Source: Halichondria panicea (taxonomy: Eukaryota; Porifera; Demospongiae; Suberitida; Halichondriidae). From it: DNA of 64,000 nucleotides. Both the position numbers and the translations under genes were made by a program. Shown one piece after another: positions 2,115 to 60,878 of the stretch. The notes beneath the pieces were generated by a model that searched no databases, was not told the DNA's origin, and saw nothing but the letters and a program-made list of their open reading frames with translations. Every line of letters starts with the position of its first letter. Within the stretch, counting starts at the first letter, position 1. The stretch lies in the NCBI RefSeq assembly GCF_963675165.1, contig NC_087377.1:12634632-12698631 (forward strand), in the 5' to 3' direction.

Positions 2115-4068
2115 CTAGATTATTGTTAGGACAATTGTTGCAGCTGAAAGAAGTACCCAGAACACGTATGCTGTTTTTATACCTGCAAGAATAGAATTGA
2201 TAGATGGTTCAACACTTTTTAGAAAAGCTTGAGAATGCGCCCTGGCAAATCTGGAAAAACCGTCAGGAGATTATTTACAATAAAAATTTGAGTAGCAATC
2301 AGGAAAAGTGAATAGTGTTTGCTAACCGCTCAATGTTAACAAGCCAGGATTTTGAGGAAGGGGTTATCATAGATGAAAGAGGGTATTAAGTGCCCGATTT
2401 TTAGCTGCGCAGTGTCGAAATTAATGGAAGCCATATATCTTATTAATGATGTCATAATCAACTTATCTACCTAGTTGGGCGTCGCCCATATAGAGCTAGC
2501 CTATTATTTTAGTAGATGTAAGCCAGAATAGCAAAGTTTAGAGTTTTGCTTGCCTACTAGCTAGCTAACTGCAGCGAAAGAGAAGGGGTGATCAGCCGGA
2601 TAATCAGATACATTTTCTTTGTGTTTGTAGGTGCTCGAGCACCCCTATTAGGCCATGATAAATTCTGCTCGTAGCATAATAGGTGTCAAAGGAAATAATA
2701 GGCTCAATGTTCATTTTTGGTAAAGATCATTACAGCAAGTTTTGCATAACGATGTTCTCATGGCAAAAAATGGCTGTAAGGTGGATCAGTTCAGTCAGCA
2801 AGAGATAACACTGAGAACCATGATAATTAATTATATTGTGTGTAAGCTGTGTGCTGTGTTTATGTCTACGTCTTAATTTTGTCTATAATTATTATGTCGC
2901 ATTTTTGGGAATAATCAGAGAATATTCGGATTTTTTCTGAGGCACAGAAAGAATAGGGTGAAAAAAAGCAGAGCCTAACCCCTATAGCACTCCCCCTGAA
3001 TGTATGCCATGTGAATGGAATTGTACAAGTAATCTGTTAATTGCCGGGGAAATTAATGAAATATTGGGCTACTTTAAATAGGAATTATTGCCCTAAATGC
3101 ATGGTTTTCGACCTTATTACTGTATATTAGCCACTAACTTTTATTTATCCGAATTGTGTCCGTCAAAACTCCATCGGTTGTCTGGTTACACTTGGATGTC
3201 ACTGTTATACGTGCGTAGACATCTATGGGAGCACTGATTGGTTCAGTAAGTATTGCTTCGTAACTATTCCTTTCTGCAGAAATATCGATGGATTTAATTA
3301 AAGTGTTATTCTCAAACACCTGGACCGTGAAGTGCCTACAGTCATAATTTCCATCATTATGTGTCCAGTTTATTCGCACACCAGCCATGTTATCTTTGTT
3401 AAAAGATCCTACCATAGGAGCCATCACATCTAAAGGAGGACCTATGGTAAAGAAATTAATGATTATGTTAATAGCTTGGTATATGCACCACACTTATCAA
3501 TCATCTCCAAGAGGATGATGAGTACACTTTAAATGCTTTGTTTACTGACTGAGTCTATCATAATTAATAGTACCTGAAGGTTTGTACCGAGCTACAGCTT
3601 GACCGGAAGTTGGGAGAACAGTGCATTGAACAACAAACTCTGGCAATGAAGAATTCACTGTCAAGTTTGCTACCATCAAAGGTGAATCAGTTGATATAAG
3701 AGTTATTACAATAGGGCCTCTTTGACGTGCTACTCCCGGAGAGTCCAATTCACGCACATACAACACAGGAGTGTTTGAGTTAACGTATGGTGGTGCTGAT
3801 AGCCTCATTTGATCTCCAGTTCCATTGCAGACATAGGTAACCTTCTCTCCTGGACAAACATACATTCTGTTTTGCAGAGAAGATGTAATGGTCATCTGAC
3901 CAGACACATTTACAATCAGATATCCTCCTAGAAGTAGAACTGACCAAATCACTGATCCCTATTAAAACGGCAGACAGTTGGGAAACAAGACAGATAGTAT
4001 TAGTATATAGCTAGTATGCTAGGACTCATTTATAGCTTCTATAATCGACTTACCATTGACATTGCCAT
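2115..4068 (-). CDS. gene A: small secreted/anchored Ig-FN3-like surface protein (4 exons, 256 aa)
   Basis: Exons: 4054-4068, 3574-3958, 3441-3139 and 2115-2182, all with GT-AG junctions and matching phases (0, 1, 1), giving one open frame of 257 codons including the stop. Residues 1-25 form a signal peptide (MAMSMGSVIWSVLLLGGYLI). Exon 2 carries an Ig-like domain beginning YVCPGEKVTYVC and ending with a second cysteine in VVQC. Exon 3 is FN3-like (GVRINWTHN...ITVTSKC) with several N-glycosylation sequons. Exon 4 is a 22-residue hydrophobic end (VFWVLLSAATIVLTII) followed directly by the stop, so the protein is either GPI-anchored or has one membrane segment and no cytoplasmic tail. It lacks signalling motifs and could act as ligand, co-receptor or decoy for the adjacent gene B; this is inference. 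Gene D at 27174 is its inverted, damaged copy. Confidence 0.8.
2649..2977. mobile_element. MITE-like element in intron 3 of gene A, TAGGCC...family copy 1
   Basis: Starts with a diverged GGCCATGATAAATTCTGCT and ends with GGTGAAAAAAAGCAGAGCC. The interior (GGTAAAGATCATTACA...TTTTGCATAACGA...GTGCTGTGTTTATGTCTA) recurs at 12963, 23862 and 25526. Ends are inverted repeats in the better-preserved copies. No coding capacity. Confidence 0.6.
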
Positions 4069-4397: not shown

Positions 4398-7300
4398 ATG
4401 AGTCCACAGTCTCTCAGGTTCTACATCGATCTTGTGGTCATATTCTATGTATCTTCTCAGCTTGCCGTCACTGGTACATGGTATCTTGTATAGATAACAA
4501 GCTAGCTAGCTATAAGCTAGGTCGATTTATTCATTGATATGTGTGATTTATTTTCCTTTACAGAAGAATATTCAGTAAATGTGGAGAGACCATGTCCAAT
4601 GGAAACAGTCACTTTCACCTGCATTGCTGCTGGAAATCTCTTGAGATGGGAAGTGTCAGATAGTGATGATACTATCGAGATCCTCTCTACCTCTGATCTC
4701 AATGTACCCATCGGTGTATCAGGTTACACTGTGACACTAATTGCATTCAATGACACTACTTTAACATCTACTCTGTCAAGAACAGCAGAGAGTGTGATCA
4801 CTGTGTCCTGTGTGGGGCTTATGCCTGTAGGTACTATAGGGTCTATAACGATTCGTTTGGTTGGTGAGTTGCCGTTTATATATAAAGTATCTTTGTTGAG
4901 TCACGTTAACTATAGATCCACCGGGACCACCCTCCACCACAAGACACTCCACTTCAAGCAACTCGGCAGATGAAGTCAGTGTGACTGTTGATTGGAACCC
5001 TCCTACTGAGACTGGTGGTAGAGATGACCTCACCTACACAGTGACCATCTCACCTCTGGCCCAGCTCTCTGCAACTGTCCTCACATCCACCTCTGTCAAT
5101 GTGACTGCTCAATACAATGTGGACTACACTGTCAGTGTTGTGGCTACCAACTGTGCTGGGAACAGTACAACTGCTGACTACAACTTTACGATTGGTGAGT
5201 CGACATCGTCTTTAAACACCATACTATACCGTAATTACCGTATTTGATGTAATTACAGCGCCACCATAATTTAAGCGCCATGTCAGCATCAGTATAATTT
5301 TTTAGAAGCACCAACTGTTGCTGGAATTATTTTTTTCTGGCGCTTATAAAAAGGTTCGTTTGAGACATCAAGAGAACCATCCTGCACTTTTACCCTTCAC
5401 ACTTCGTCTTTAACCATTAATCAGGCTAGAAGAACACTACAACCAGCCCTTTGGGCTTCTAAATTATCCTAAACAGTGTCTAACTATTATGTAGAACATA
5501 AGCGCCACCATAATTTGCTGGGCTGAACGCAAGTTTTTTATGTTCTAAAAGATGCGCCACTCAGAAGTGGAATTAATTTTTTCTGGCACTGTAATTTCAT
5601 CAATTACGGTATTGACTCCCTCTCATGCAGGCAGCTGTCCTGTGTTGATCAACCCCATGAATGGAGCGTTTGGACCAACCACCAACAGTTTGCCAGGATC
5701 CACGGTAACCATCCAGTGCGACGCTGGGTATGTATCTGCTGTTACAATGGTGACATGTGAGGGTACACTGATGTGGAGTCCAGACCCTGAGGCTATTGAG
5801 TGTACATTACTAACCACACCTACTCCCACAATTCGTGAGTTAAGCTCTTGATTGTACAAATTATTATTTTTCACCTCACAGCTCCAATGAGCTGCACAAC
5901 TTCACTATCCCCACCACAGAATGGCACTATCAGTAATCGTTCAGCACCAGCTATTCCCGGTACACAAGTGACCTTCCAGTGTGATGATGGACTGTTCCCT
6001 GAGGGCATACTGACTGCCACCTGTCTAGTTACAGGAATGTGGGACAAGAACCCGGGGGAGATTATCTGCAGAAATGAGTCTAGTAAGTTTCCTGATTTAT
6101 GGTAGTTTGTCAATTATTTTGAATAACTAAAATTGAGCGTAACTTTTCAATTAACCTGTACCCAGTTTCATGTGCCCTGCCTGCCCCTCTACTCTATGGA
6201 GCTTTACTCAACACTAACTTTCAGAACACTAACCTAATGGAGGGCTCAGTCATTACCTTCCAATGTGATCCTGGGTTCTCACTGGTGGGTGCAGTGACTG
6301 CCACTTGTAACAACTCTGGTCTCTGGGATCCTGACCCGGCTGTATTGAGGTGTAAGTTCATTTTTGTTCTGTATGTGCATGTACATGTAACAGTGATGCA
6401 TAATGGCCTATTATATATAGGTGTGGCAGCGCCAACTGGTGGGAATGTTGCTGCTATAGCTGGAGGTGTTGCTGGTGGTATAATGGTCGCGTTACTTCTC
6501 ATTTTGTTGATAATAATTATCTTATTGGTGGTTCTCAGAAAGAGAAAAGGTGAGTTGACTAATTTTCTGGTACAAAAACTGATTACTTGTTTTCTCAGAG
6601 AGTGTGAGGCATAAATCAAATGACAGTATAGAAATGGATCATAGGTTTGATGTAAACGTAATGTGTGTAGTCTCTGTGTATTGTTATGAGCCATGCCTTT
6701 CATTACAGGGGGAATACAGTGCACTACAACACAATGGGCCGGTAAAGAACTCAAAGAAGGTTAGTTTTCTTGACTCGTTTTATACTCACTAACTCTTTAA
6801 TGCAGTGCCAGCCTCCAGCAGCGGATGAAGAAGGCTACAATAGAATCACTCATAATGTGGTGAGTATCAACGTATTGTGTGCATTAGCTTAATTATTGCA
6901 TCACCTCACAGAATCCTGCTTCACAGAATCCTGCTTCCCTCACCTATGATGAGGTTATCCTCAACAGTGATAAGGTGTATAGTATAACCTCATCAATACA
7001 CACCATTATGATGCTGCAATGATGACCATTCTTATAATTAACACAGAAAATAGCGGTCAATGAAGAGGGATACAGTGTGATGGACACTGGACAGGTATAT
7101 GAAACTCGTCTTGATCGACTCAATCATTTAACTCCACTGTTTGTATAGGGTGCTCAGAGGATGCCCGGCTATGGCCAGCTCGGCAATGTGGTGAGTGTGT
7201 GTGTGTACAGCCGTTAGTGAGAGTATTGTGACTAATGAGTGTTCGTTCTGTGGCATTATAACTAAAAGTTAAACAAATCATCAAAGTAAGTAAAGTAACT

Positions 7301-8484
7301 GTTTGTGTATAGTGTTAATTAGATGTGTCCTGTGTGGTGCATTAATTATACATTGCTTCACCGCAATATCCTAGCTGCTTTGCATTGTACAGATAGTCAT
7401 ACTAAATTGTTAATTTATATTGTAGGTACACTCTATAATTACAAGTAAGGCTATTCTTGTTCCCGACACCCCAGGCTACAGTGGAGCCGGTAATCTATGC
7501 TGCCCTTAGCACTAGCCAGCCTCGCAAGAAAGGGACTGCCACTGTGGATCATCATCAGGTGACCTACGCCACTGTGGATAGTGATGCTACCATACAACAG
7601 GAAGCTAAGGCAGCCATCCTCCCAACAGGTGAGTATGCTTGCGTAATTTTAAGATTCATTGTTCCATCATTGCACAAGCGCACAGCGGCATAATTATTGC
7701 TGGTATGTGTTTCACTTTGTGTGTCTGTCTGTATAGACTGCTATTATTATAATTATGATAGTCAATGAAGTGCGGTGGAAATTAGGTACCGTTCTAAAAA
7801 AGGAATAAACATAGCATGTTTACTCTAATAGCTTCAGGCCAGGCATCAGCACCCGTGGTGCTTTCGTTTTGATTATTGCATGTTTATTGTGTGTACTATG
7901 GTGCGTCCGTTCCGGGTAGTTTTGATTTAGAAATATCTATAGCGATCGAGTTGTGAGTTTTTCCCATTTTGAAATCTAGTGTTGTCTGTTCCTGGTAGTG
8001 AGGTCCCTAGCGAGTTATGAGTTTTTCCCATATTGTATGATTAAGAAGAAGTGTGCTTATAATGTTGTCTGTTCCTGGTAGTTTTGATTAGGAAGTTTCT
8101 ATCTTGTCTTCCCTAGTGTTTGTTTTGTCTGTCTGTTTCCTGGGTGTGTACAGCATGTCATTTCATCAGCTGATTAGGAGACAATGGGAAAACACAGAGT
8201 GCATCCCTGATAAGCTGTCAGCTTTATGGCTTCTGGTTTTACCCTTACCTTTTAAGGCACATAACCTTGTTATTGTTCATGAGTTACAAGCTGGTACTCA
8301 CTACTGCTATAGAGTCCCCAAGGCCATGATAGTGTTCATGGTTTGAGTGTTGTGAGTTGTAGCTTTCATTGCTTCCTCTAGTACTGGCTTGTAGTGCTGC
8401 CCTGAAGCTGTAGCATTGCCTACTGCAGTTTTAATAGTTAGTGCAGATGTTATCATCATTAGTGTTCAGCTTATGAGTTTTTGT

Positions 8485-8515
<31 letters not shown>

Positions 8516-8594
8516 AACACACACACACACACACACACGCACGCACGCACGCACACACACACACACACACACCACACACACACCACACACACAC

Positions 8595-8680
<86 letters not shown>

Positions 8681-8740
8681 ACACACACACCACACACACA
8701 CACCACACACACACACACACACACACCACACACACACACA

Positions 8741-8810
<70 letters not shown>

Positions 8811-9592
8811 CCTCAGCCCCAGCCCTGCCTGATGTTGACAAGCTCCTGGACATTGACCAGGCCTTGGTCCAGATCAGGTCAATGCAGCACAAATGGAGGG
8901 AGCTGGCTGAGACTATGAGGGTGCCAGAAACAATGATTGAACAGGTATGTAGTTGAATCTATCAAGGGTCAAGCATTGATAGTCATCAGGAGTACATGAC
9001 ATTTACATGTACAGTACATGTAGTGTACATACATACATGTACTTAGTGGTGTGAAGGAATGTGTTGTTTACATAGATAAAGTAGAAGTGCACTCTATTGT
9101 TGATCAGCTACTCACTCAAATATCTCATTTTAGATCGAGGATTCATGTGGAATCAACCATGGTGGCTGTCTAACGGAGGTGATCGACCAGTGGATGAGGA
9201 GTTGCTCTGGGCGACCAACCTGGAGAGAGCTGGCTGGTCATCTCCATAATATTGGAGAGGAGCAATTGTCACAAGAACTCATGACTATCTACGATACTGG
9301 TGAATAGAATAGTGGTTTCACGTGTGTTGCTTGAAGTGTGGCCCTGCTACATGTATATGAAGTCATAATGATTATTGTTTGCTGTCCGATAGATTATGGT
9401 TTGCTCCTGACAGTAACGTATAACTTTCACTAATAAAATAATGTTATTGTATTAATTAGAGAGCTGTATATGGTGTGTGTATGGTGTGCTTAGAACAGAG
9501 ATCTTTGCTAAAAGGATTACTTCTACAACAAGGTTTATTTACTCCATGCATATTTAAAATTCCACATGTAGTGACACACACACACACTCACA

Positions 9593-9651
<59 letters not shown>

Positions 9652-9719
9652 ACACACACACTCACACACACACTCACACTCACACTCACACACACACTCA
9701 CACACACACACACACACAT

Positions 9720-9813
<94 letters not shown>

Positions 9814-9818
9814 ACACA

Positions 9819-9877
<59 letters not shown>

Positions 9878-10379
9878 CGTCTCCCAGTGGAGTTGAACAT
9901 GAAGGCAGTACCAAGTACCGTGTACAAGTACGACCGAGCCCCTCCCCCTCCCCTCCCCTCTCGATCACCCACAACGACAGATGACGACCCCGGACTACCA
10001 AAGCTTCCCTCACGTCCCCCTAAAGCGTAAGTTGATTGAATGCACGAACATGCTCCCATGCATGTAACTAATTACCACTATAATAATGTTTACAAAGTTG
10101 TTAATTGTGGGCAAACGTTAATCCAACGAAGGGATGGTGGTGTCAGTAGGTTGGGTTAATATCATTGTGCATCAAGTACACTCCCGTGTCCGAGTGCTAG
10201 CTACAACTATATAATGTGCATCAAACAACACACTTTTAATTAGCTTAGCTACTTAAACATTATTCCTTCCCCTATACAGAGCTGGTGCGGCAATGGTTCC
10301 AGCCCGTCCCCCTAAATCAGCCCATAACAATGAACCTCCAGTACCTGCACGCCCGTCCAAGCAATATGCGAAGCATTAG
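4398..10379 (+). CDS. gene B: Ig-FN3-CCP3-TM receptor with ITIMs, Death domain and proline-rich tail (18 exons, 796 aa)
   Basis: Exons: 4398-4473, 4564-4863, 4916-5194, 5631-5834, 5882-6082, 6166-6351, 6421-6549, 6599-6651, 6709-6759, 6806-6859, 6912-6974, 7047-7094, 7149-7190, 7475-7628, 8811-8944, 9134-9299, 9876-10026 and 10280-10379. All junctions are GT-AG and in phase, totalling 2391 nt. Domains: signal peptide 1-25; Ig-like 26-125 (RPCPMETVTFTC...LRW); FN3 126-218; sushi 219-286, 287-353 and 354-415; TM about 435-455 (MVALLLILLIIIILLVV) then RKRK stop-transfer; tyrosine tail 459-613; Death domain about 620-713 (HKWRELAETM...QWMRSCSGRPTWRELAGHL); proline-rich end 714-796 (RAPPPPLPSR, VPARPPK, PVPARPSK) suited to SH3 binding. 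Tyrosine motifs are YSAL 479, YNRI 504, LTYDEV 523, YSVM 541, YGQL 556, VIYAAL 570 and VTYATV 593. It is a type I surface receptor that could recruit SH2 phosphatases and Death adaptors. The ligand is unknown. The 5' end lies divergent to gene A. Confidence 0.88.
8487..8809. repeat. (CT)n followed by (CA)n microsatellite in intron 14 of gene B
   Basis: About 30 bp of CT repeats then nearly 300 bp of CA repeats with ACGC and CACCAC interruptions. Open frames of Thr-His or Cys-Val repeats across it are artefacts. The last CAG of the tract is the splice acceptor of exon 15, which starts the Death-domain segment. Confidence 0.95.
9577..9874. repeat. (CA)n microsatellite in intron 16 of gene B
   Basis: About 300 bp of CA repeats with CACTCA interruptions. 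As in intron 14, the terminal CAG at 9873-9875 serves as the acceptor of the next exon (9876, proline-rich tail). Confidence 0.95.
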
Positions 10380-10958: not shown

Positions 10959-11790
10959 TTGGTACTGTATACTCTGTTTGCTATACTGTATACTCTGTTT
11001 GCTATACTGTATACTCTGTTTGCTATACTGTATACCCTGTTTGCTATACTGTATACCCTGTTTGCTACTGTATACCCTGTTTGCTATACTGTATACCCTG
11101 TTTGCTATACTGTATACCCTGTTTGCTACTGTATACCCTGTTTGCTACTGTATACTCTGTTTGCTATACTGTATACCCTGTTTGCTATACTGTATACCCT
11201 GTTTGCTACTGTATACTCTGTTTGCTACTGTATACCCTGTTTGCTACTGTATACCCTGTTTGCTATACTGTATACCCTGTTTGCTACTGTATACCCTAAT
11301 TGCTATACTGTATACCCTGTTTGCTATACTGTATACTCTGTTTGCTATACTGTATACCCTGTTTGCTATACTGTATCCCCTGTTTGCTACTGTATACCCT
11401 GTTTGCTATACTGTATACCCTGTTTGCTATACTGTATACCCTGTTTGCTACTGTATACCCTGTTTGCTATACTGTATACCCTGTTTGCTACTGTATACTC
11501 TGTTTGCTACTGTATACCCTGTTTGCTATACTGTATACCCTGTTTGCTACTGTATACTCTGTTTGCTATACTGTATCCCCTGTTTGCTATACTGTATACC
11601 CTGTTTGCTACTGTATACCCTGTTTGCTACTGTATACTCTGTTTGCTATACTGTATCCCCTGTTTGCTACTGTACACCCTGTTTGCTACTGTATACCCTG
11701 TTTGCTATACTGTATACCCTGTTTGCTATACTGTTTGCTATACTGTAACCCTGTTTGCTATACTGTATACCCTGTTTGCTACTGTATACC
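10959..11790. repeat. minisatellite, about 40 units of 19 and 21 bp
   Basis: Tandem array of the unit TGTTTGCTATACTGTATACC (21-bp form) mixed with a shorter 19-bp form lacking TA (TGTTTGCTACTGTATACCC). Variants include CTGTATCCC, CTGTACACC and one ACCCTAATTG unit. Because the two unit lengths alternate, all three forward frames stay open for long stretches, producing Leu/Tyr/Cys-rich peptides that are not genes. The array ends with a diverged CAGTTTAATATAATT. Confidence 0.95.
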
Positions 11791-11799
11791 CAGTTTAAT

Positions 11800-12962
11800 A
11801 TAATTGTGTAGCCAATATCGGCCTGAGATTTGCCTGTCATTTCCTGTCTGCTTATGTCACTTCCTCTTATTATTGGGTGTGTCTGGAATTCACTGGGGAG
11901 CCCCTGTGATTATGGTCTACTCACTGATTGGTGTTTCCATAGCAAAGCTTGTGTATCTGAATTAAAATTGTGTACTCAGACTTTGAACATTGGTGGGAAG
12001 CTTGAGTGCTTTTATGGCATGTACTTTTAATGTTTCCGTAATGCATCGTTGGACTCTACACAGAATCTTATAATAGAATGCTATATATAACCTCTAATTG
12101 TTCTTTATATGTACACGTACATGACAAGGCTTTCAGCACATGACAATCAACACACTTGACACAATGCCGATTGTTCTCTACATTAAGTGCTGTACATAGC
12201 ATGTATCTATAGGTGGGCAGGCATGCACTAATGCATGTTGGTTTTTCCTGCTATGAAAGCAGTTAGTATGACCATGTTAGGTTATAAAGTGAACGTAAAG
12301 TCCGTTTACTTTCCTGCATGGTTGTTTATGTATGCATGTGATGCCAGCAGCTGTGTATGGGTGTGTATATAATAATGTATTGCACATGTTCACACGTACA
12401 TTATCGCTAGGAAATGTTGATGTTCAATACAATTAATAGTTGTTGTCATTCTCATGGGATAGTTATTATAGGAAGATTATTGTCTGTTTGGGGTAGTTGG
12501 CGTATACTTATTTCACTGAAAATAGTTTCTATAATAACATTAATTTTAATGGCTGGTGGTTTACCCTCTTTGAATGCTGTAAACGCATTCATTTGCCTAG
12601 TAACTATTGAAGGGGGGAGTAACTGCATCTAAGGACATTCATTAGTCTTCCTCCTTTCCAAGTAATGCTATGAATTTTCATATTTCTAGGGCAGCTCTCC
12701 AGATGTCCAGCCACAAAATCTTTCAAATGCCTAGGGGCCAACGGTGCCTAAAAATTAAAAGGGTCATTTAGCAAAGTGAGAGACTGTGATAACAAAGCTA
12801 TAGGGAGGGACGGGAAATAATAATAAACACACGCTTTGTTTTGACTACCACTATGACTATGGAGCAATAACACATTGTGCACAGTATGCTCATGCATGGC
12901 TGTATGCATGTTGACCTATATTTGCCTGTGGTAAGAGTCACTATAGTAGTTAAGTGAGAGTT
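11800..12962. other. intergenic, no gene seen
   Basis: Only short open frames without flanking splice signals or recognisable domains. GTACATGTAC-type palindromic words are frequent, as elsewhere in the window. Confidence 0.5.
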
Positions 12963-17555: not shown

Positions 17556-18210
17556 TTACAGTCCGACTGGTCCATACGCCTGGTTAGTGTTCAGCTCAAT
17601 CTCCTCTTTGGGTGACACCTCTTCATAAACAGGGCCAGCTGGTACAGTGGGTCTTAAGTTAGTTTGTCCTTCAGCTGCTGGGAAGTACACTGCTTTCTTA
17701 CGAGAGCAAAGGTGCATCACTAAGAGTCCAGTGAGGAATCCAATGACTGTGAAAGCAACTGCAGTGACAACCACACTGATAGAAAGAATCTCTCTGGTAA
17801 ATAGGGTGGGTGATTGAACTGTGCATGGGAGGAGGCAACATTTTTAGAGTGAAAAATATCAGTATAGAGAGTTCCAATAGACAATGGGAGGGTGTGCATC
17901 ACAAGAGTAAACTATATAAGACTATGATTATAGCTATTCATTTAGTTATAATCATAAAAGGTTCTTTCTTGCATCAGCTTATAATTATATAATTATAGTG
18001 TATACGTACAACTTCTAGATACACAATCCAATAGAGCCGGGTCAGGATACCAAAGACCAGAGTTGTTACAAGTGACAGTCACTGCACCCACCAGTGAGAA
18101 CCCAGGATCACATTGGAAGGTAATGACAGAGCCCTCAATTAGGTCAGTGTTCTGATTGTTGGTGTTGAGTAAAGCTCCATTGAGTGGAGGGGCAGACAGG
18201 GCACAGGAAA
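17556..18210 (-). pseudogene. gene C: 3' remnant of a CCP-TM receptor
   Basis: Two in-phase exons. 18010-18210 encodes one sushi domain (ALSAPPLNGALLN...SVITFQCDPGFSLVGAVTVTC...GLW), very close to exon 6 of gene B. 17556-17818 encodes a linker, a TM segment (VVVTAVAFTVIGFLTGLLVM), a basic CSRKK stop-transfer and a tail with VYEEV and NQAYGPVGL. Acceptors are GTCTCAG and ATGCACAG; the inner donor is GTACGT. Immediately upstream of 18211 the sequence is unrelated, so signal peptide, Ig and FN3 exons are missing. The exon frames are intact, so it could still be spliced into a transcript from elsewhere, but as placed it is a fragment. The TM/tail exon belongs to the same family as in F and G. Confidence 0.75.
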
Positions 18211-18560
18211 CTGAGACCCAGCCCACATCCTTCCCTGCTTCCTTCCAAACCAGCCACACCTCCAGCTCTGTCTTTGCAGCAACCAGCCCCACCTCCATAT
18301 CTGCTGCAGTAACCAGCCCCACCTTCCTATCTGCTCTCTCTGACCTGCAAGACAAGAGTTCGTAGACTATTTGCTCTCCTCCACAGCCAGTGAGAACCTA
18401 CTTACTGCTCCAGTGGCAAAGAAAACAAGAAAATTCGCTCCCCCAAAGTCAAGTAAAGAAGTAGAACAAGCAAAAAAGGAAACAACACCAAAGAAAACAC
18501 TCATTAACATCAAGTATTGCTTATTATTATGTACTTGGGTTATTATTTTATCTTGATCAG
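18211..18560. other. inserted segment of unknown origin
   Basis: Replaces the expected 5' part of gene C. The plus strand is open through a Ser/Thr-rich stretch (SFQTSHTSSSVFAATSPTSI) with a roughly 30-bp internal repeat (GCAACCAGCCCCACCT / GTAACCAGCCCCACCT), then after CTCCACAG a lysine-rich stretch (VAKKTRKFAPPKSSKEV). This could be a fragment of a transposon-encoded protein. No family was recognised. Confidence 0.3.
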
Positions 18561-27173: not shown

Positions 27174-28617
27174 ATGACTCCAATACCAATTCCAGTGGTA
27201 CTGCTGGTAAGTACTTATACTAATGTAATTATAGTCCTATAGTTATAATATAATTATTAGTTATTATAATAATTATAGTATAATTATAATTATAATTATA
27301 CTTATAATTATACTTGTTTTCAACTCTCTGTATGCATGAATGCATGGTACAGGGTGCAGTTATACTTCTAGGAATGGATGTGTCTGGTCAGACGACCATT
27401 ATGTCTTAATTCTTTGCAAGCAACAAACAGAATGTATGTATGTCCTGGAGAGATTGTTACCTATGTCTGCAATGGAACTGGAGATCAAATTAGGCTATCA
27501 GCACCACCATACGTTACTGTGGGCCTTCCTTTGTCGTATGCGCGTGGAGACCTTCCTGGATTAGGAAGAATAAGAAATGGCTCTATTGTATCAAATCTTA
27601 TATCAACTGATTCACCTTTGATGGTAGCAGACTTGATAGTGCAAAATCCTTCATTGCCGGAGTTTTCTGTTCGTTGTACTGTTCCACCTTCTGATGAAGC
27701 TGTAGCTCAGCACAAACCTTCAGGTACTCTAAGACTCATGCATGCAGTCAGTAAACAAAGCCTTTGGAGTGTAATCTGCTCCTGGTATAATTACTCACCA
27801 TCCACTCAGTCACGGGATATGACGTACGTCTACATTGATAAGTGTGGTACATGTGGTCGGTCACACATAATATTTATTATTTATAGGTCCTCCTTTAGAT
27901 GTGATTTCTCCTATGATTGGATATTTTCCCCCACCAAACGAACTTAACACTGCTGGTGTGCGAGTTAATTGGACGCATAATGATTCAAATTCAAATTATG
28001 ACCCTAGTCACTTCACGATCCAGGTGTTTGAGAGTAACACTAGCACTGCAATTAAATCCATCGCTATTTCTGCAGAAAGCAATAGTTTCGAAGCAATACT
28101 TGCTGTACCCTTCAGTGCTCCCATGAAAGTCTATGCACGTATAACAGTGACGTCCAAGTGTAGCCAGACAACCAATGGAGTTATGACCAACACTATTCAG
28201 ATAAATGAAAGTTAGTGGCTATATATAATAGAGTAATAACTAATTTTTCTGTCGAATATACCATGCATTCAGACACGAATTCCTATAGGAAGTGTTTAGG
28301 CAAACCCTCGCAACTAAAGTCCAACGGTGTAATAATAAATTATTACCCGGAAATCAATATACATAATAATGTAACTTGTACAATTCCATGCAGTTACATG
28401 GCAATGATGGCATGCATTCTTCGTTTTCATCAATTTCTTGATTTCTAGTCAAGATTATCCTAAAATTTTCCAAGGAACATTCGTATCTTTTTTCTAAAAA
28501 CCTTGAACCGTAATAATTATTATTAATGCTATCAATTCTATTTTTGCAGGTATAAAGACAGCATACGTGTTCTGGGTACTCCTTTCAGCTGCAACAATTG
28601 TCCTAACAATAATCTAG
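27174..28617 (+). pseudogene. gene D: inverted copy of gene A with disrupted reading frame
   Basis: Four exons match gene A: 27174-27206, 27353-27723, 27887-28210 and 28550-28617, with the same phases and closely similar introns. The signal-peptide frame (MTPIPIPVVLLGAVILLGMD) runs through VSGQTTIMS and meets TAA at about 27407. The Ig-like domain (MYVCPGEIVTYVC) continues in another frame because about 10 extra bases replace a stretch of A's exon 2. Exon 3 (GVRVNWTHN...ITVTSKC) and the hydrophobic exon 4 (VFWVLLSAATIVLTII) are intact. Exon 3 is 21 nt longer than in A (FPPPNEL insertion). Unless an unseen 5' exon is used, D cannot make the full protein. It lies tail-to-tail with gene E. Confidence 0.75.
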
Positions 28618-38398: not shown

Positions 38399-40212
38399 TC
38401 ACAGTCCCACTGGTCCATATGCTTGATTAGAGTTCAGTTTAATCTCCTCTTTGGGTAACACCTCCTCATAAATAGGACCAGCTGGTACAGTGGGTCCAAC
38501 GTTAGTTTGCTTCTTAGCTAGGAGATACACAATTTTCTTCCGCATGAACAAATACATTATCAGGAGACCAAGACCAAATCCAATGATCGTGAACAGAGCT
38601 GTCGTGACAACCACACTAACGGAAACAGCAGTACCAAGGTCAGTACGAGTGAATAAGGTGAGAGGTTGAGCTGTATAAGTGGATCCATCAATGTAGATAC
38701 ATGAATACAAGTGATGAATGAATATACACAGTAAAAACAGATACGTTATAATAACATAAAACATCTCAAATAAAATGCATCATTTGAAATTTAATGTAGA
38801 AATGACATAAATTTCTGTCATTTTAACACTAAAATACGATGATGCATCCCATATAACATATGTGTTTTTGCTGTGTACACTTGCCTCCGCAGATAATCTC
38901 CCCCGGATTCTTGTCCCACTCTCCTGTAGCTAGACAGGTGGCAGTCATTATCCCCTCAGGGAACAGTCCATTGTCACACTGGAATGTAACTTGTGTAGCG
39001 GGAACAGCTGGTACAGAATGATCACTAATGGTACCGTTCTGTGGTGGGCCTAGTTGAACAGTGCACCTCATTGGAGGACCTGCATGGAATTATAAGCGAA
39101 GAGAGAGCTAGCTAGATTAGCTTCTTAGAAGATTCTTATAACTCACGAGTTGAAGGAGGAGGCTGGATTATTGGTGAACACACAATAGCTTCAGGGTCAG
39201 GACTCCACATCAGTGTTTGACCATTACATGTCACCATAGTATTAGGAGACCCAAACCCAGCATCACATTGGACAATTACTTCAGATCCTGGCAATCTGCT
39301 AGTGACTGTTTCAAAGGCTCCGTTCATGGGGTCAGTAGTCAACACAGGACAGATTTCTGAGAGAAAAAATGGTACGTACTAATTGATAGGGAAAAGATTA
39401 CATTATAATAGTACCAATCCTGAAGTTGTACTCAACAGTTGTACTGTTCCCAGCACAATTGATAGCCATAAAACTGACAGTGTAGTCCACATTGTATTGA
39501 GAAGTCATAGTGACAGAGGTGGATGTGAGGACAGTAGTAGAGAGCTGGGCCGGAGGTGAGACAGTCACTATGTAGGTGAGGTCATCTCTACCACCAGTCT
39601 CAGTAGGAGGGTCCCACTGTACAGGTACACTAACTTTATTGGCTGAGCTGCTCAGAGTGAAGTGTCTTACGGTGGAAGGTGGTGCTGGAAAATCTATAAT
39701 GGGATGAACCCATTGTGCAAAGACCTCCAGACTAAAGTGCTCAGACGCTCTCCTGATAAAGTGCGACCGATTCATTATTTTATAGCTGCATGTATGCATG
39801 CAACTCACCAACCAAATTAATTGTTGAAGATCCTATAGTATTTAAAGTAGGCACAAACCCCACACAGGACACAGTGATCCCATTCTTTGCTGTTCTTGAC
39901 AGATTAGATGTTAATATAGTATCATTGGCTGCGATCAGTGTCACAGTGTAACCTGATACACCGATGGGTACATTGAGATCAGAGGTGGAGAGGATAGTGA
40001 TGCTAGTAACATCTGACGGCTCCCATCTCAAGGCATCTCCAAGAGCAGTGCAGGTGAAAGTGACTGTATCCATTGGACATGGTCTCTCCACACTCACTGA
40101 ATATTGGGCTTTACAAAGCATTCAATGCGGACATTCTAATGATGGAGTCGTTCTTACCAGTGGCACTGGCAGTGCTAAAGCCAGCCAGGAGGAGAACTCT
40201 AACCAAGTTCAT
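38399..40212 (-). CDS. gene F: Ig-FN3-CCP-CCP-TM receptor with two-tyrosine tail (6 exons, 436 aa)
   Basis: Exons: 40158-40212, 39809-40108, 39415-39693, 39147-39356, 38885-39079 and 38399-38670. Every junction is phase 1 and the sum is 1311 nt with no internal stop. Domains: signal peptide 1-18 (MNLVRVLLLAGFSTASA), Ig-like 19-118 (RPCPMDTVTFTC...LRW), FN3 119-211, sushi 212-281 and 282-346, TM (VSVVVTTALFTIIGFGLGLL) with RKK stop-transfer, and a cytoplasmic tail with IYEEV and NQAYGPVGL. The Ig and FN3 exons have exactly the lengths of those in gene B (300 and 279 nt). The last intron uses a GC donor (GAG|GCAAGT), the only choice that keeps phase and meets consensus. The tail could bind SH2 proteins but is not a strict ITIM. 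This is the cleanest complete member of the Ig-FN3-CCP2 subgroup here. Confidence 0.87.
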
Positions 40213-46626: not shown

Positions 46627-48374
46627 ATGGTGGTAACAATAGAGAGAGCGATGCTGAGAGACACACTGATGTGAATTTTCTTCTTACACAATTCAATTCA
46701 GATCAAGTATCTTCTGTTAATAGCATTTATGATTAACTCTCAGACAGGAGGTATAAAATGAGAGTAATAAGGATTGTGCTGCATGTGTGATTGAATGTTC
46801 CATTTCAACAGAAGCCTCTTTAGTGTCCAACACAAGTGTGGCGTGTCCTGGAGAGGCAGTTCTGTTCACATGCTCTAAGCCTGCCACTGCATTAAGATGG
46901 CAAGTGGATCCTCCAGCGGAGTCTGGGTTGATGTCAGTACAAAGTACAATCTTCCTTGGTTCTAATGTCGGTCGAAGGGACACATTTGGATCAGGAGTGA
47001 TCACGTTTGAGGCTGTTCTTGTGAGCAATGATGGTAGAACTGTGACGTCCACCCTCATCAACCTCAGTGAAGTGTCTGTACTGGATGGTAGCAATGTCAC
47101 CTGTACTAGTACTGTTACTAATGGTGGTGTAATAGAGTTACAACAGACAGTCATAGTTGCTGGTAAGTATACTTACCCAATATTCTGTTGAGACAAATCT
47201 TGAACTTGCAGTTGCTCCAACTGCTCCACTCAACCCAAGACTGTCTGCCGCTCAAAATCAAATCAGTTCATCCATTGTCACTGTATTATGGGATTCTCCC
47301 TTCTTTACTGGTGGTGTGTCTGTCAGCTATATCCTCATCATCTCCCCAACACCTCTCTCCGGGTCACCAGTCACCGTGGAGACCACCTCGGCACAGATAA
47401 TCATCTCCTATAACACTCCCTACAATGTGAACATCAGAGCTGTCAACTGTGCTGGATCGAGCAGTGATGTGATGCCAATGATTCCTGCTATTGGTATAAT
47501 TATTTTGTACTAACCTTAACCCTAACTTTTGTCTACTGCAGTTACCTGCCCCTCCAACCCAACACCTGCCAACCGAGTGACCATCAATGGTGCTCCTCCA
47601 CTGCCTGCACTAGTAGGATCAACTCTTAGTTTCACTTGCAATGGACAGATGGTACTAGCAACCTGTGAGAGTGATGGACGATGGTCACCTGACCCCACCA
47701 CATATGACTGTCTCTCAGGTAAGGTGCATGTATATTATCATGACATCACTAGTTTTCCCCTTCCACGATTCGGTAGCTGATTAGTTGAATGCTTGTGCAT
47801 GTGCAGCTGATTGAGATGGTACTTTTTGGCCTTCCATATAATTATTACAGTGCACTGCTCTCTTCCTCTTGAGCTGTGCAACGGTGGTATAGTGGACTAT
47901 GATAGGTTGAACAAGACAGTGTTGGAGGGAACAGTGCTGACTTACCAGTGTGACAATGAATTCTCATTGACTGGACCCAACAACATCAATTGTACTAATG
48001 CTGGACTCTGGAGTATTGAGCCTGAGGCAATCAAGTGTGTACTTAGGACTAAAGGTTTAGGAGTTATTTATTCCATAATGAATAATTATGACTATCTGTT
48101 TTACAGGTTCTACAGTCGCCATCCTATCTACTGGTGAAGCTATCGCTATAAGTTTTGTCATAACTTTCATTGTTGCTGCAATTCTTGGATTCCTTGCTGG
48201 ACTCCTAGTGATGCACCTTTGTTCTCGTAAGAAGGCAGTATATACTCTCCAGCAACTAAAGAACAAGCTAATATAGGACCCACTGCACCAGTTGGTCCTG
48301 TTTATGAGGAGGTGTCACCCAAAGAGGAGATTGAACTGAATACTAACCAGGCGTACGGACCTGTTGCACTATAA
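46627..48374 (+). pseudogene. gene G: Ig-FN3-CCP-CCP-TM receptor, tail truncated by a frameshift
   Basis: Exons: 46627-46632 (tentative ATG GTG), 46702-46750, 46812-47162, 47212-47493, 47542-47718, 47851-48054 and 48107-48276. They are in phase and encode 412 residues: signal peptide (KYLLLIAFMINSQ), Ig-like (VACPGEAVLFTC...LRWQVDPP), FN3 (ILIISPTPLSGSPVTV), two sushi domains, and TM (ISFVITFIVAAILGFLAGLL). After CSRKKAVY the sequence GTATATAC has an extra TA compared with the C paralogue, shifting the frame to TLQQLKNKLI and a stop at 48276. The expected tail (VYEEV...AYGPVAL) is still readable in the next frame to 48374. The product may be a tailless, signalling-dead surface protein. The donor of the second sushi exon is weak (GTTTAG); an earlier GTGTAC is also possible. 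Confidence 0.78.
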
Positions 48375-49896: not shown

Positions 49897-50340
49897 AGTC
49901 TGGTGGTGTGTGTCACCTAGCTATGTCCTTACCGTCTGTCCCCAACACCTCTCTCAGGGTCACCAGTCCCTGTCAGTATGGAGACACCTCGGCACAGATA
50001 ACCATCTCCTACAACGTTGCCTACAATACGACTATCGATATCAGAGCTATTAACTGTGCTGGAATGATGGAAGCAAATTTTGGATCTGATTAAGCCATTT
50101 TACAACATACATGTATTTCTCCTCTTTATAATGCTGCTGTGTGCCTCACACCATCTATACTGCTGCCGGTGTTACCATCACCATGCAATATACATCTCCT
50201 GTATACGTATCTATACTAATCGATCTAGGCTCACTGAGCCTGACAGGAATTATGTAGCAGTAGCAAGTGGTCCCCTAACCCTGGGACCTTTGATTCACTA
50301 CTACATCTATACTGTTAGGTGGCAGGTGCTGCTGCTTTTG
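49897..50340 (+). pseudogene. receptor relic H2: FN3 and CCP fragments
   Basis: SLPSVPNTSLRVTSPCQYGD, TSAQITISYNVAYNTT and IRAINCAGMM match the end of the FN3 exon of gene G, with frame changes and a stop soon after. GCTGCCGGTGTTACCATCAC marks a sushi exon start. The downstream 600 bp match 45700-46460 in order, for example TTTCCAGACATGCTT preceded by AAAGACAA. Confidence 0.65.
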
Positions 50341-59683: not shown

Positions 59684-60878
59684 CTGGTCTCTCCCTGCAC
59701 ATCAAGCTCCCAGGATTCTCCACCCACTCTCCCCTACCCCACACATCAGTGCATGTGCTGGTCTTCACATCAAAGGGGAACAGTCCCTCGTCACAGCGAT
59801 AGGTGACCTCTGAACCCAGTGAGAAGAGTGGTGTCCCACCACTGATGTCCACACTACCTCTGGATGGTGCATTAGGAGAGCCACAGGTGACTGGGGGATC
59901 TAATAAGGACACCAATGAAAAGAAGCATGTACAAATTTATGATTAAGATTATATACCTGTAATCGGACTGCTGCAGTCAAAGGTCCCAGGGTCAGGAGAC
60001 CATCCACTACTGCCACATGTTGAGGTTCTCACTTCATTGTCTCCACTGTAAGTGAAGGTGAGCATAGATCCACCAATAGTGACAGGAGGTGTGTTGGTGA
60101 TGGTCACACCAGCAGCAGTAGACGGTGTGGGGCACACAACTGTAAGAGAAGGAGCACAGATATATAATGTACATGACGTTTAATGAGCTTATACTCAGAT
60201 TTACAATTCTAGTTTCATTCATTCCAGCACAGTTGTCAGCTCTGATAGTCACATTGTATATAATGTTGTGTAGGAGACAGTGATTTGTGCTAAGGTGGTG
60301 TCCACAGTGACTGGTGACCCGGAGAGAGATGTTGGGGAGATGATGAGGGCATACCTGATAGACACACCACTAGTAGAGGAGGGAGCCTCCCAGTCCAGAG
60401 TGATATCAGAGGAACTGGGTTGATTTAGAGTGGAGGGTATTCTTGGGTTTAGTGGAGAGGTTGGATTACCTGTGTGTGACATCAATAAGAGACTGTGCTA
60501 GATTAGTAAAGATAGCTCCTCATCAGCAACCAATATTGTCTGCTGTAGTTCAACAACTGTAATACCATTTAAAGTGCAGGTCACAATGCTTCCATCCAGT
60601 ACAGACACTTCACTGAGGTTGATGAGAGTAGAAGTCAGGTTTACTCCGTCACTGCTCACAAGAACAGCCTCAAACATGATCACTCTAAACCCAAATGTGT
60701 CCCTTCGACCAACTAGAGAGGCCAATGAAGGGTGTACTTTGCATAGTCATTAACCCAGACTCTGCTGGAGGTTCGACTTGCCATCTCAGTACACTAGACA
60801 TATCACCAGGCACAGAGCATGTGAACAGAACTGCCTCTCCAGGACATGCAGCACTGCTGTTGGACACCAGAGAGGCCT
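59684..60878 (-). pseudogene. gene I: decayed Ig-FN3-CCP-CCP receptor
   Basis: Exon remnants: Ig 60524-60878 (AACPGEAVLFTC...LRWQVEPP), FN3 60195-60469 (ALIISPTSLSGSPVTV), CCP1 59957-60139 (STAAGVTITNTPPVTIGG) and CCP2 59684-59899 (VTCGSPNAPSRGSVDI). Lesions seen: a one-base insertion in the Ig exon near 60712, loss of the Ig exon donor (GCTG|ATGAGG where the G paralogue has GCTG|GTAAGT), a one-base frameshift in FN3 near 60256, and a first-pair cysteine of CCP1 changed to tyrosine (FTYSG). No TM/tail exon follows; instead a copied HEAT exon lies at 59137. Closest visible relative is gene G. Confidence 0.8.

Follow-up and report, generated by a model that had tools for sequence, protein, structure and literature searches.

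We describe a receptor gene in a 64,000-nucleotide stretch of the genome of the demosponge Halichondria panicea (C1:12634632-12698631 of a 131-Mb assembly in 39 contigs; hereafter the window, to which coordinates without a contig name refer). The gene, at 4398..10379 on the forward strand, encodes an ectodomain of a V-set-like immunoglobulin (Ig) domain, FN3 and three Sushi domains, and a tail with immunoreceptor tyrosine-based inhibitory motifs (ITIMs), a Death domain and SH3-type prolines. It belongs to a family on contig C1 in which a common ectodomain (V-set-like Ig, FN3 and, in the type-1 form, three Sushi) is joined to one of two main tails: a short tail with two tyrosine motifs (YEEV, YGPL/V) or this long ITIM-Death-proline tail. 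The architecture, the family, the constraint on its parts, the linkage to a neighbouring gene and the presence of partner genes are direct observations. From them we consider it fairly probable (about 0.6) that the receptor is a long-tail member of a sponge paired-receptor-type recognition complex with a new ITIM-Death output, a tyrosine-gated switch for death or inflammation.

Structure of the receptor gene

Splicing of the window DNA predicted 18 exons with GT..AG introns throughout and agreeing phases, giving 796 aa and a stop, in agreement with the first-pass annotation of this DNA (18 in-phase exons, 796 codons). The end of exon 8 was fixed at 6651, since the receptor frame otherwise breaks. 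The NCBI protein LOC135347907 isoform X5 (P0001, H. panicea, 812 aa; NCBI models are taken as predictions throughout) is the same chain, differing in that it keeps a 57-nt in-frame intron 8 and in the ends of exon 10, by 6 nt and 3 nt. The features are as follows.

4398..10379, +, whole long-tail receptor gene, 18 exons, 796 aa (spliced model; NCBI P0001)
4398..4473, +, exon 1, signal peptide (by inspection)
4564..4863, +, exon 2, modelled V-set-like Ig domain (aa 26-125)
4916..5194, +, exon 3, FN3 domain (Pfam scan)
5631..5834, +, exon 4, Sushi 1 (Pfam scan, fold search)
5882..6082, +, exon 5, Sushi 2 (Pfam scan, fold search)
6166..6351, +, exon 6, Sushi 3 (Pfam scan, fold search)
6421..6549, +, exon 7, transmembrane helix (helix 426-462 in the structure model)
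6599..7190, +, exons 8-13, short, in phase, five YxxPhi tyrosines including one canonical ITIM (LTYDEV)
7475..7628, +, exon 14, two canonical ITIMs (VIYAAL, VTYATV); 19 genomic matches
8811..8944, +, exon 15, Death domain, first part (profile; pN/pS 0.20)
9134..9299, +, exon 16, Death domain, second part (profile; pN/pS 0.22)
9876..10026, +, exon 17, proline-rich SH3-type motifs
10280..10379, +, exon 18, proline-rich C terminus and stop

Long (CA)n tracts reach the acceptors of exons 15 and 17 (window ~8520-8809 and 9576-9874). Read-through of the exon 16 donor meets an in-frame stop at 9305-9307 and AATAAA at 9432 (window 9299-9437), so the gene may also yield an isoform that stops after the Death domain and lacks the proline tail. 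Downstream of the gene, a minisatellite of ~20-base units (CTGTATACCCTGTTTGCTATA) occupies window 10960-11800.

Domains of the extracellular and cytoplasmic parts

The arrangement that the first-pass annotation had read, Ig-FN3-Sushi x3 outside and ITIMs, Death domain and SH3-type prolines inside, proved right. Pfam searches of the ectodomain, as the annotation had proposed, found the three Sushi domains (E 3.9e-21) and a sub-threshold fn3 (20.6 bits, cut-off 25; 28.4 bits, over the cut-off, in the paralogue P0022); no Pfam Ig model matched any family protein scanned. The Ig assignment comes from structure modelling, in which exon 2 is predicted to be a V-set-like Ig domain folded as a V-set beta sandwich (predicted local distance difference test, pLDDT, 86), and its core residues C19, W28 and C82 (exon numbering) are invariant across 21 aligned rows. 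Among the best 50 matches listed by a Foldseek search with the full-length model, every protein contains Sushi, and CD46 and CR2, for example, stand in the top PDB rows.

The Death profile (PF00531) scored 16.7 bits when run on the whole chain, below the cut-off of 22.6, reached exactly 22.6 bits on a 101-aa piece, and matched at E <= 0.1 in 9/9 family members scanned (best 5.6e-5). Compared with solved Death domains, a profile built from seven members found FADD (E 5.4e-6) and RIPK1 (E 0.0044), and the single sequence as query found FADD only (E 0.13). These results answer the hidden Markov model check that had been proposed for this region and relate the domain to known Death domains.

All seven tyrosines between the membrane and the Death domain lie in Yxx[ILVM] contexts (7/7; shuffled mean 1.25, with 0/20,000 shuffles reaching 7). 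The tail holds four ITIM-like motifs, one of them (EGYNRI) non-canonical, against 0.41 by shuffling (p 0.0002), and six SH3 class I/II motifs against 1.4 (p 0.002). The motifs VIYAAL/VVYAAL/VVYAVL and VTYATV, of the [ILVS]xYxx[ILV] type, recur in 10/10 long proteins, and LTYxxV in 8/10.

A 3.7-Mb receptor complex on contig C1

We then searched the genome with individual exons, scoring 150/188 candidates for Ig type 1, 137/137 for Ig type 2, 150/289 for the short tail and 21/21 for the ITIM exon, so that counts for the large families are lower bounds. The type-1 Ig exon has at least 119 matches, with 118 lying on C1 and a single one on C32, a small contig, and the type-2 Ig exon has 114, all on C1. 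Merging the 118 type-1 and 114 type-2 matches gave 214 Ig exon places on C1, 212 of them within 11.2-14.95 Mb (the 3.7-Mb complex); some are fragments or carry stops. All matches to the short tail (transmembrane segment, YEEV, AYGPL/V; at least 150) and to the ITIM exon (19) are likewise on C1. A third tail type, with the motifs YEEV, AYGQT and AYGEI/AYREI, occurs in P0012 and P0021.

Both Death exons lie downstream on the same strand, at 0.4-6.2 kb, in 15/19 ITIM exon copies, and a type-1 Ig lies upstream within 12 kb in 8/19 (counts made with 17 first-half and 36 second-half Death matches, out of 72). Type-2 Ig domains stand on some other long-tail members (NCBI models P0004, P0005). For 110 of the 119 type-1 Ig matches, setting aside the C32 copy and eight fragments, the next tail within 10 kb was short in 86 cases and long in eight, with none found for 16. 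The ITIM-Death form is a minority within the complex. Beyond the view of the first-pass annotation, the receptor is one of 15 genomic copies with ITIM and Death exons in order, a second, short tail exists in the far larger surrounding complex, and the receptor is half of a divergently transcribed pair.

In a diverged relative at C1:14.427-14.431 Mb, Sushi exons are accompanied by an ITIM-type exon (VDYTTVDFEAT), a proline tail and a tandem pair of Death domains that share 55% and 44% identity with that of the window receptor; a Death domain of this branch, at C1:14428634, scores 29.6 bits in the genome scan, over the Pfam cut-off. Since the diverged branch keeps the ITIM-Death-proline order, the order looks old within the family. 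Tandem Death exons occur at two loci, C1:14427113-14431190, with adjoining Sushi and ITIM-type exons, and 14505117-14509241; judged from its exon content, the first is possibly an older form of the receptor.

The tail search returned ten matching proteins, all from Halichondria panicea, and the ectodomain search also matched vertebrate and insect Sushi proteins and one further protein, with the source tag lgn. Other sponges were not among the matches of the tail, Death and ectodomain searches, for which 7,990, 310 and 7,991 candidates were scored, so that their absence is not established.

Tail class, ectodomain lineage and constraint

A tree was built from the Ig+FN3 part of 8 proteins with long tails and 12 with short ones (8/10 long proteins; P0003 and P0008 lack Ig-FN3). 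On this tree the tail label requires 5 changes, against a shuffled mean of 6.5, and a grouping of all long-tail rows was rejected by the approximately unbiased test (p-AU 3.3e-30); most type-1 branches are unresolved, two rows are long-branched, and the outcome of the test stems largely from the deep divide that separates Ig types 1 and 2. Both tails were found on both Ig types. P0001 and P0004 are 31% identical in Ig+FN3 and 84% in the tail, and P0011 and P0022 show the same values for Ig+FN3 (31%) and the short tail (84%); the contrast is absent in other pairs such as P0001 and P0006 (Ig+FN3 73%, tail 70%). In these comparisons tail class does not track ectodomain lineage, the pattern of paired receptors, in which exon shuffling or gene conversion produces it.

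The ratio of nonsynonymous to synonymous differences (pN/pS), pooled over copies, was 0.67 for the Ig exon (resampling 0.59-0.73), 0.46 for the transmembrane segment and short tail (0.42-0.52), 0.40 for the ITIM exon (0.27-0.48), and 0.20 (0.14-0.31) and 0.22 (0.18-0.26) for the two Death exons. These values come from 20/119 Ig, 20/150 short-tail and 15/19 ITIM exons and 13 and 9 Death exons, picked from the best-scoring copies and hence biased towards copies like the window receptor. Of all parts tested, the Death domain is under the strongest constraint, and is therefore no relic.

Within the Ig exon, diversity peaks over residues 22-53, a stretch around strands C and C' of the model; its mean there, 0.34, was equalled or exceeded by 4/99 circular shifts, the actual position included, and strands and loops overall show no difference. 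In 15-codon windows, pN/pS reaches 0.67-1.10 over residues 11-55 and 1.0-1.2 also at 71-90, where pS is low, values that prove nothing by themselves. On the modelled fold, the peak around C-C' fits a binding face, although it is no proof of one.

A head-to-head Ig-FN3 gene

Opposite the receptor lies a gene for a small Ig-FN3 protein, which has a second copy in the window.

3134..4068, -, neighbour gene: signal peptide, Ig-type domain, FN3, stop; 235 aa (exons 4068-4054, 3958-3574 and 3441-3134, boundaries by eye)
27372..28212, +, second copy of the Ig-FN3 neighbour gene

Its paralogues gave 38 exon matches, counted as 19 copies (a weak match at C1:14552927 was left out), all on C1. A head-to-head copy stands at 8/8 type-1 long-tail receptors, with 587-2137 bp between the Ig exons, and under random placement 0/20,000 trials reached 8 (maximum 3). 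Eleven further copies lie away from type-1 long-tail receptors, three of them opposite ITIM exons with a stop. The frame ends after FN3 in the window neighbour, where no membrane segment precedes the stop, and also in the copies L095-L099 and in the window copy at 27.4 kb. A membrane-segment scan of L095, L096 and L099 found a hydrophobic open stretch ~0.1 kb past the FN3 stop in the first two (2/3), so a spliced membrane form is possible. The Ig-FN3 neighbour is a candidate ligand or co-receptor.

Candidate signalling partners

The genome holds a gene of order SH2-SH2-tyrosine phosphatase with the motif HCSAGIGRTG at C3:8406162 to 8404573, minus strand, whose SHP-type label rests on domain order and which we presume to resemble SHP2. 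On C7, a DED exon (C7:1623085) lies 446 bp upstream of a Death exon (C7:1623677). Death matches number at least 148 genome-wide (150/503 candidates scored), many in runs on C12, C14, C15 and C1. The searches for Death, SH2 and DED matched none of 14 control genomes, and that for tyrosine phosphatase matched three. Tyrosine-phosphatase exons also form dense runs on C4. Of the earlier interpretation, then, the architecture stood; its further step, an inhibitory tyrosine switch linked to a death adaptor within the receptor, is one that we infer, but genes of both partner kinds (SHP-type on C3, DED-Death on C7) are present.

Proposed mechanism and alternative explanations

In the mechanism that we propose, the V domain would bind a surface or secreted ligand, possibly the head-to-head Ig-FN3 product. 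Short tails would recruit SH2 kinases and activate the cell. On long tails, the ligand-bound, phosphorylated ITIMs would recruit the SHP-type phosphatase and restrain signalling, and once this restraint was lost the Death domain would recruit a FADD-like DED-Death adaptor, leading to death or an NF-kB-type output. The receptor would then serve as a tyrosine-gated death or inflammation switch in the recognition of non-self or microbes. Fas offers a precedent for a Death receptor gated through tyrosines.

Several points weigh against this proposal. Its least certain step is the sign of the switch: in the excerpted text of PMC4778973, Src-family kinase (SFK) phosphorylation switches the apoptotic signal of Fas off and SHP-1 switches it on, and since SHP-1 promotes death there, by analogy the ITIM/SHP arm might here favour death instead of restraining it. 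The Death score is borderline for this chain, the AlphaFold2 model of P0001 places six helices at 638-728 at low confidence (block pLDDT 49-69), and P0010, a paralogue model, stops before the second Death half. A claim of positive selection was dropped, as pooled pN/pS is below 1 in every part. An immunoreceptor tyrosine-based activation motif (ITAM) reads YxxI/L x6-12 YxxI/L; in the short tails 13 residues separate YEEV from YGPL/V, a spacing too long for a strict ITAM, and the motifs are ITAM-like at most. The putative FADD-like gene on C7 consists of two adjoining exon matches. At 13802580, one of the eight head-to-head pairs, the neighbour was matched by its Ig exon only, and pairs can tandem-duplicate as a unit, so that the linkage does not amount to eight independent events.

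The closest competitor, which we hold to be a serious though less probable account, is a pattern-recognition or complement-type system, in which microbes or complement-like opsonins are the ligands of the Sushi/Ig ectodomain, and pressure from pathogens or symbionts, rather than allorecognition, lies behind the expansion. The Sushi proteins CD46 and CR2 heading the PDB rows for the whole model agree with it, as do the lipopolysaccharide-regulated H. panicea genes, which include Sushi/immunoglobulin-domain genes and kinases with sushi or DEATH domains (excerpt of PMC8242945); however, the Sushi matches are of fold only, the regulated genes are not tied to these loci, and the linked Ig-FN3 gene is left unexplained. 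In a further and rather doubtful reading, the complex would be a sponge histocompatibility-type (allorecognition) locus, and each long-tail receptor and its head-to-head Ig-FN3 gene a receptor-ligand haplotype pair: matching self ligand would keep the ITIM/SHP brake on, and loss of self would free the Death domain, killing or walling off the contact zone. If this is true, ITIM/kinase-type paired recognition exists in sponges besides cnidarians, ascidians and vertebrates.

An UNC5-like adhesion or guidance receptor of the dependence type, signalling death without ligand in a developmental rather than immune role, is improbable. An Ig ectodomain with a Death domain is common to UNC5, and the Death domain here is strongly constrained, but TSP1, ZU5 and UPA were found in none of the Pfam scans of the receptor chain and nine family members, and more than 200 Ig-exon places, variable around C-C', would be unusual for a developmental receptor. 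Membership of the UNC5 type was rejected on the absence of TSP1 and ZU5, and that of the TNFR type on the absence of TNFR cysteine-rich repeats from the same scans. Least probable is an artefact of gene model or assembly, with the Death exons a separate gene joined to the receptor only through (CA)n introns. Introns 14 and 16 do end in such tracts, and a stop and AATAAA follow exon 16; against this, both Death exons follow 15/19 ITIM exons, Sushi is also present in 9/10 NCBI clusters found with the tail, and the exon order is kept in the diverged branch too. We rejected a separate Death gene on these co-linear paralogues and NCBI proteins.

Further members and fragments

Five further family features lie in the window.

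17559..18229, -, family fragment: Sushi and short tail (YEEV...AYGPV)
38402..40109, -, short-tail receptor: type-1 Ig, FN3, two Sushi found, transmembrane segment, YEEV...AYGPV
46787..48371, +, short-tail receptor, type-2 Ig
49965..50315, +, type-2 ectodomain fragment
59685..60873, -, type-2 ectodomain, no tail located

Outside the complex, five matches of 39-41 codons, 56-59% identical to Death query residues 42-82, were found on four contigs in the genome search; they may belong to a dispersed repeat that carries a piece of the Death exon.

C11:4784746, C11:5042532, C2:8609868, C14:3280668 and C7:5225742, Death-exon piece matches

Comparison with known recognition systems

Sponge aggregation factors are immune or allorecognition candidates with another architecture. 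Vertebrate paired receptors (KIR, LILR, SIRP, Siglec) place similar ectodomains on inhibitory and activating tails within one clustered region, to our knowledge without a Death domain; their activating forms typically couple to ITAM adaptors by way of a charged transmembrane residue, unlike the short-tail transmembrane segments here, where no charged residue was seen. UNC5 combines an Ig ectodomain, a single transmembrane segment and a Death domain, and we know of no ITIM cassette in it; its TSP1, ZU5 and UPA domains are absent from the sponge receptor in Pfam scans. Fas, TRAIL-R and TNFR1 have a TNFR cysteine-rich ectodomain, which these scans likewise did not find in the sponge receptor. They resemble it in their transmembrane Death domain, and YxxL motif peptides bind SHP-1, with Fas under SFK/SHP-1 control (PMC4778973, in excerpt).

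Sponge Ig-TIR receptors, known immune or allorecognition candidates, carry TIR rather than ITIM-Death (PMC8242945, in its excerpted text). The Botryllus FF/FcoR system, with 37 new FF and 53 FcoR loci, is similar in its clustered genes and adjacent cognate pairs, and FcoR in its ectodomain of V-type Ig and Sushi and in ITIM or other tyrosine tails in alternative forms (PMC12065747); compared by description, FcoR differs in having one Sushi, two C2 Ig and no FN3, in a chordate, where the sponge receptor has V-Ig, FN3 and three Sushi and so does not show the FcoR architecture. The term 'death domain' is absent from the text of PMC12065747. Hydractinia Alr (41 members) is likewise an immunoglobulin-superfamily (IgSF) gene complex with V-set domains in an early-branching animal, though a cnidarian one, and its description in the excerpt of PMC11999971 mentions neither Sushi nor Death; ITAM and ITIM domains are reported for Hydractinia allorecognition candidate genes (part of PMC12065747).

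No description of an ITIM-Death receptor, or of this receptor complex, turned up in searches of the open-licence literature, consistent with the first-pass annotation's claim of novelty. Recognition complexes of this general kind, with paired IgSF/Sushi receptors, have been described from other phyla; what is new, as far as these searches go, is the tail that joins ITIMs to a Death domain, the size of the complex and its occurrence in a sponge. A 2025 review calls invertebrate allorecognition mechanisms 'a complete mystery' and finds that sponges, cnidarians and ascidians have no conserved candidate proteins in common (passages of PMC12065747). In H. panicea, V-set receptors with two main classes of tail, together with their linked Ig-FN3 partner, gather in a single 3.7-Mb region that is open to mapping. 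This system may serve to tell self from non-self, or to recognise microbes, in an animal lineage that is among the oldest. A chain with both ITIMs and a Death domain would place inhibitory and death outputs under the control of one ligand, and should the complex prove polymorphic, the question of how paired-receptor recognition arose becomes directly testable.

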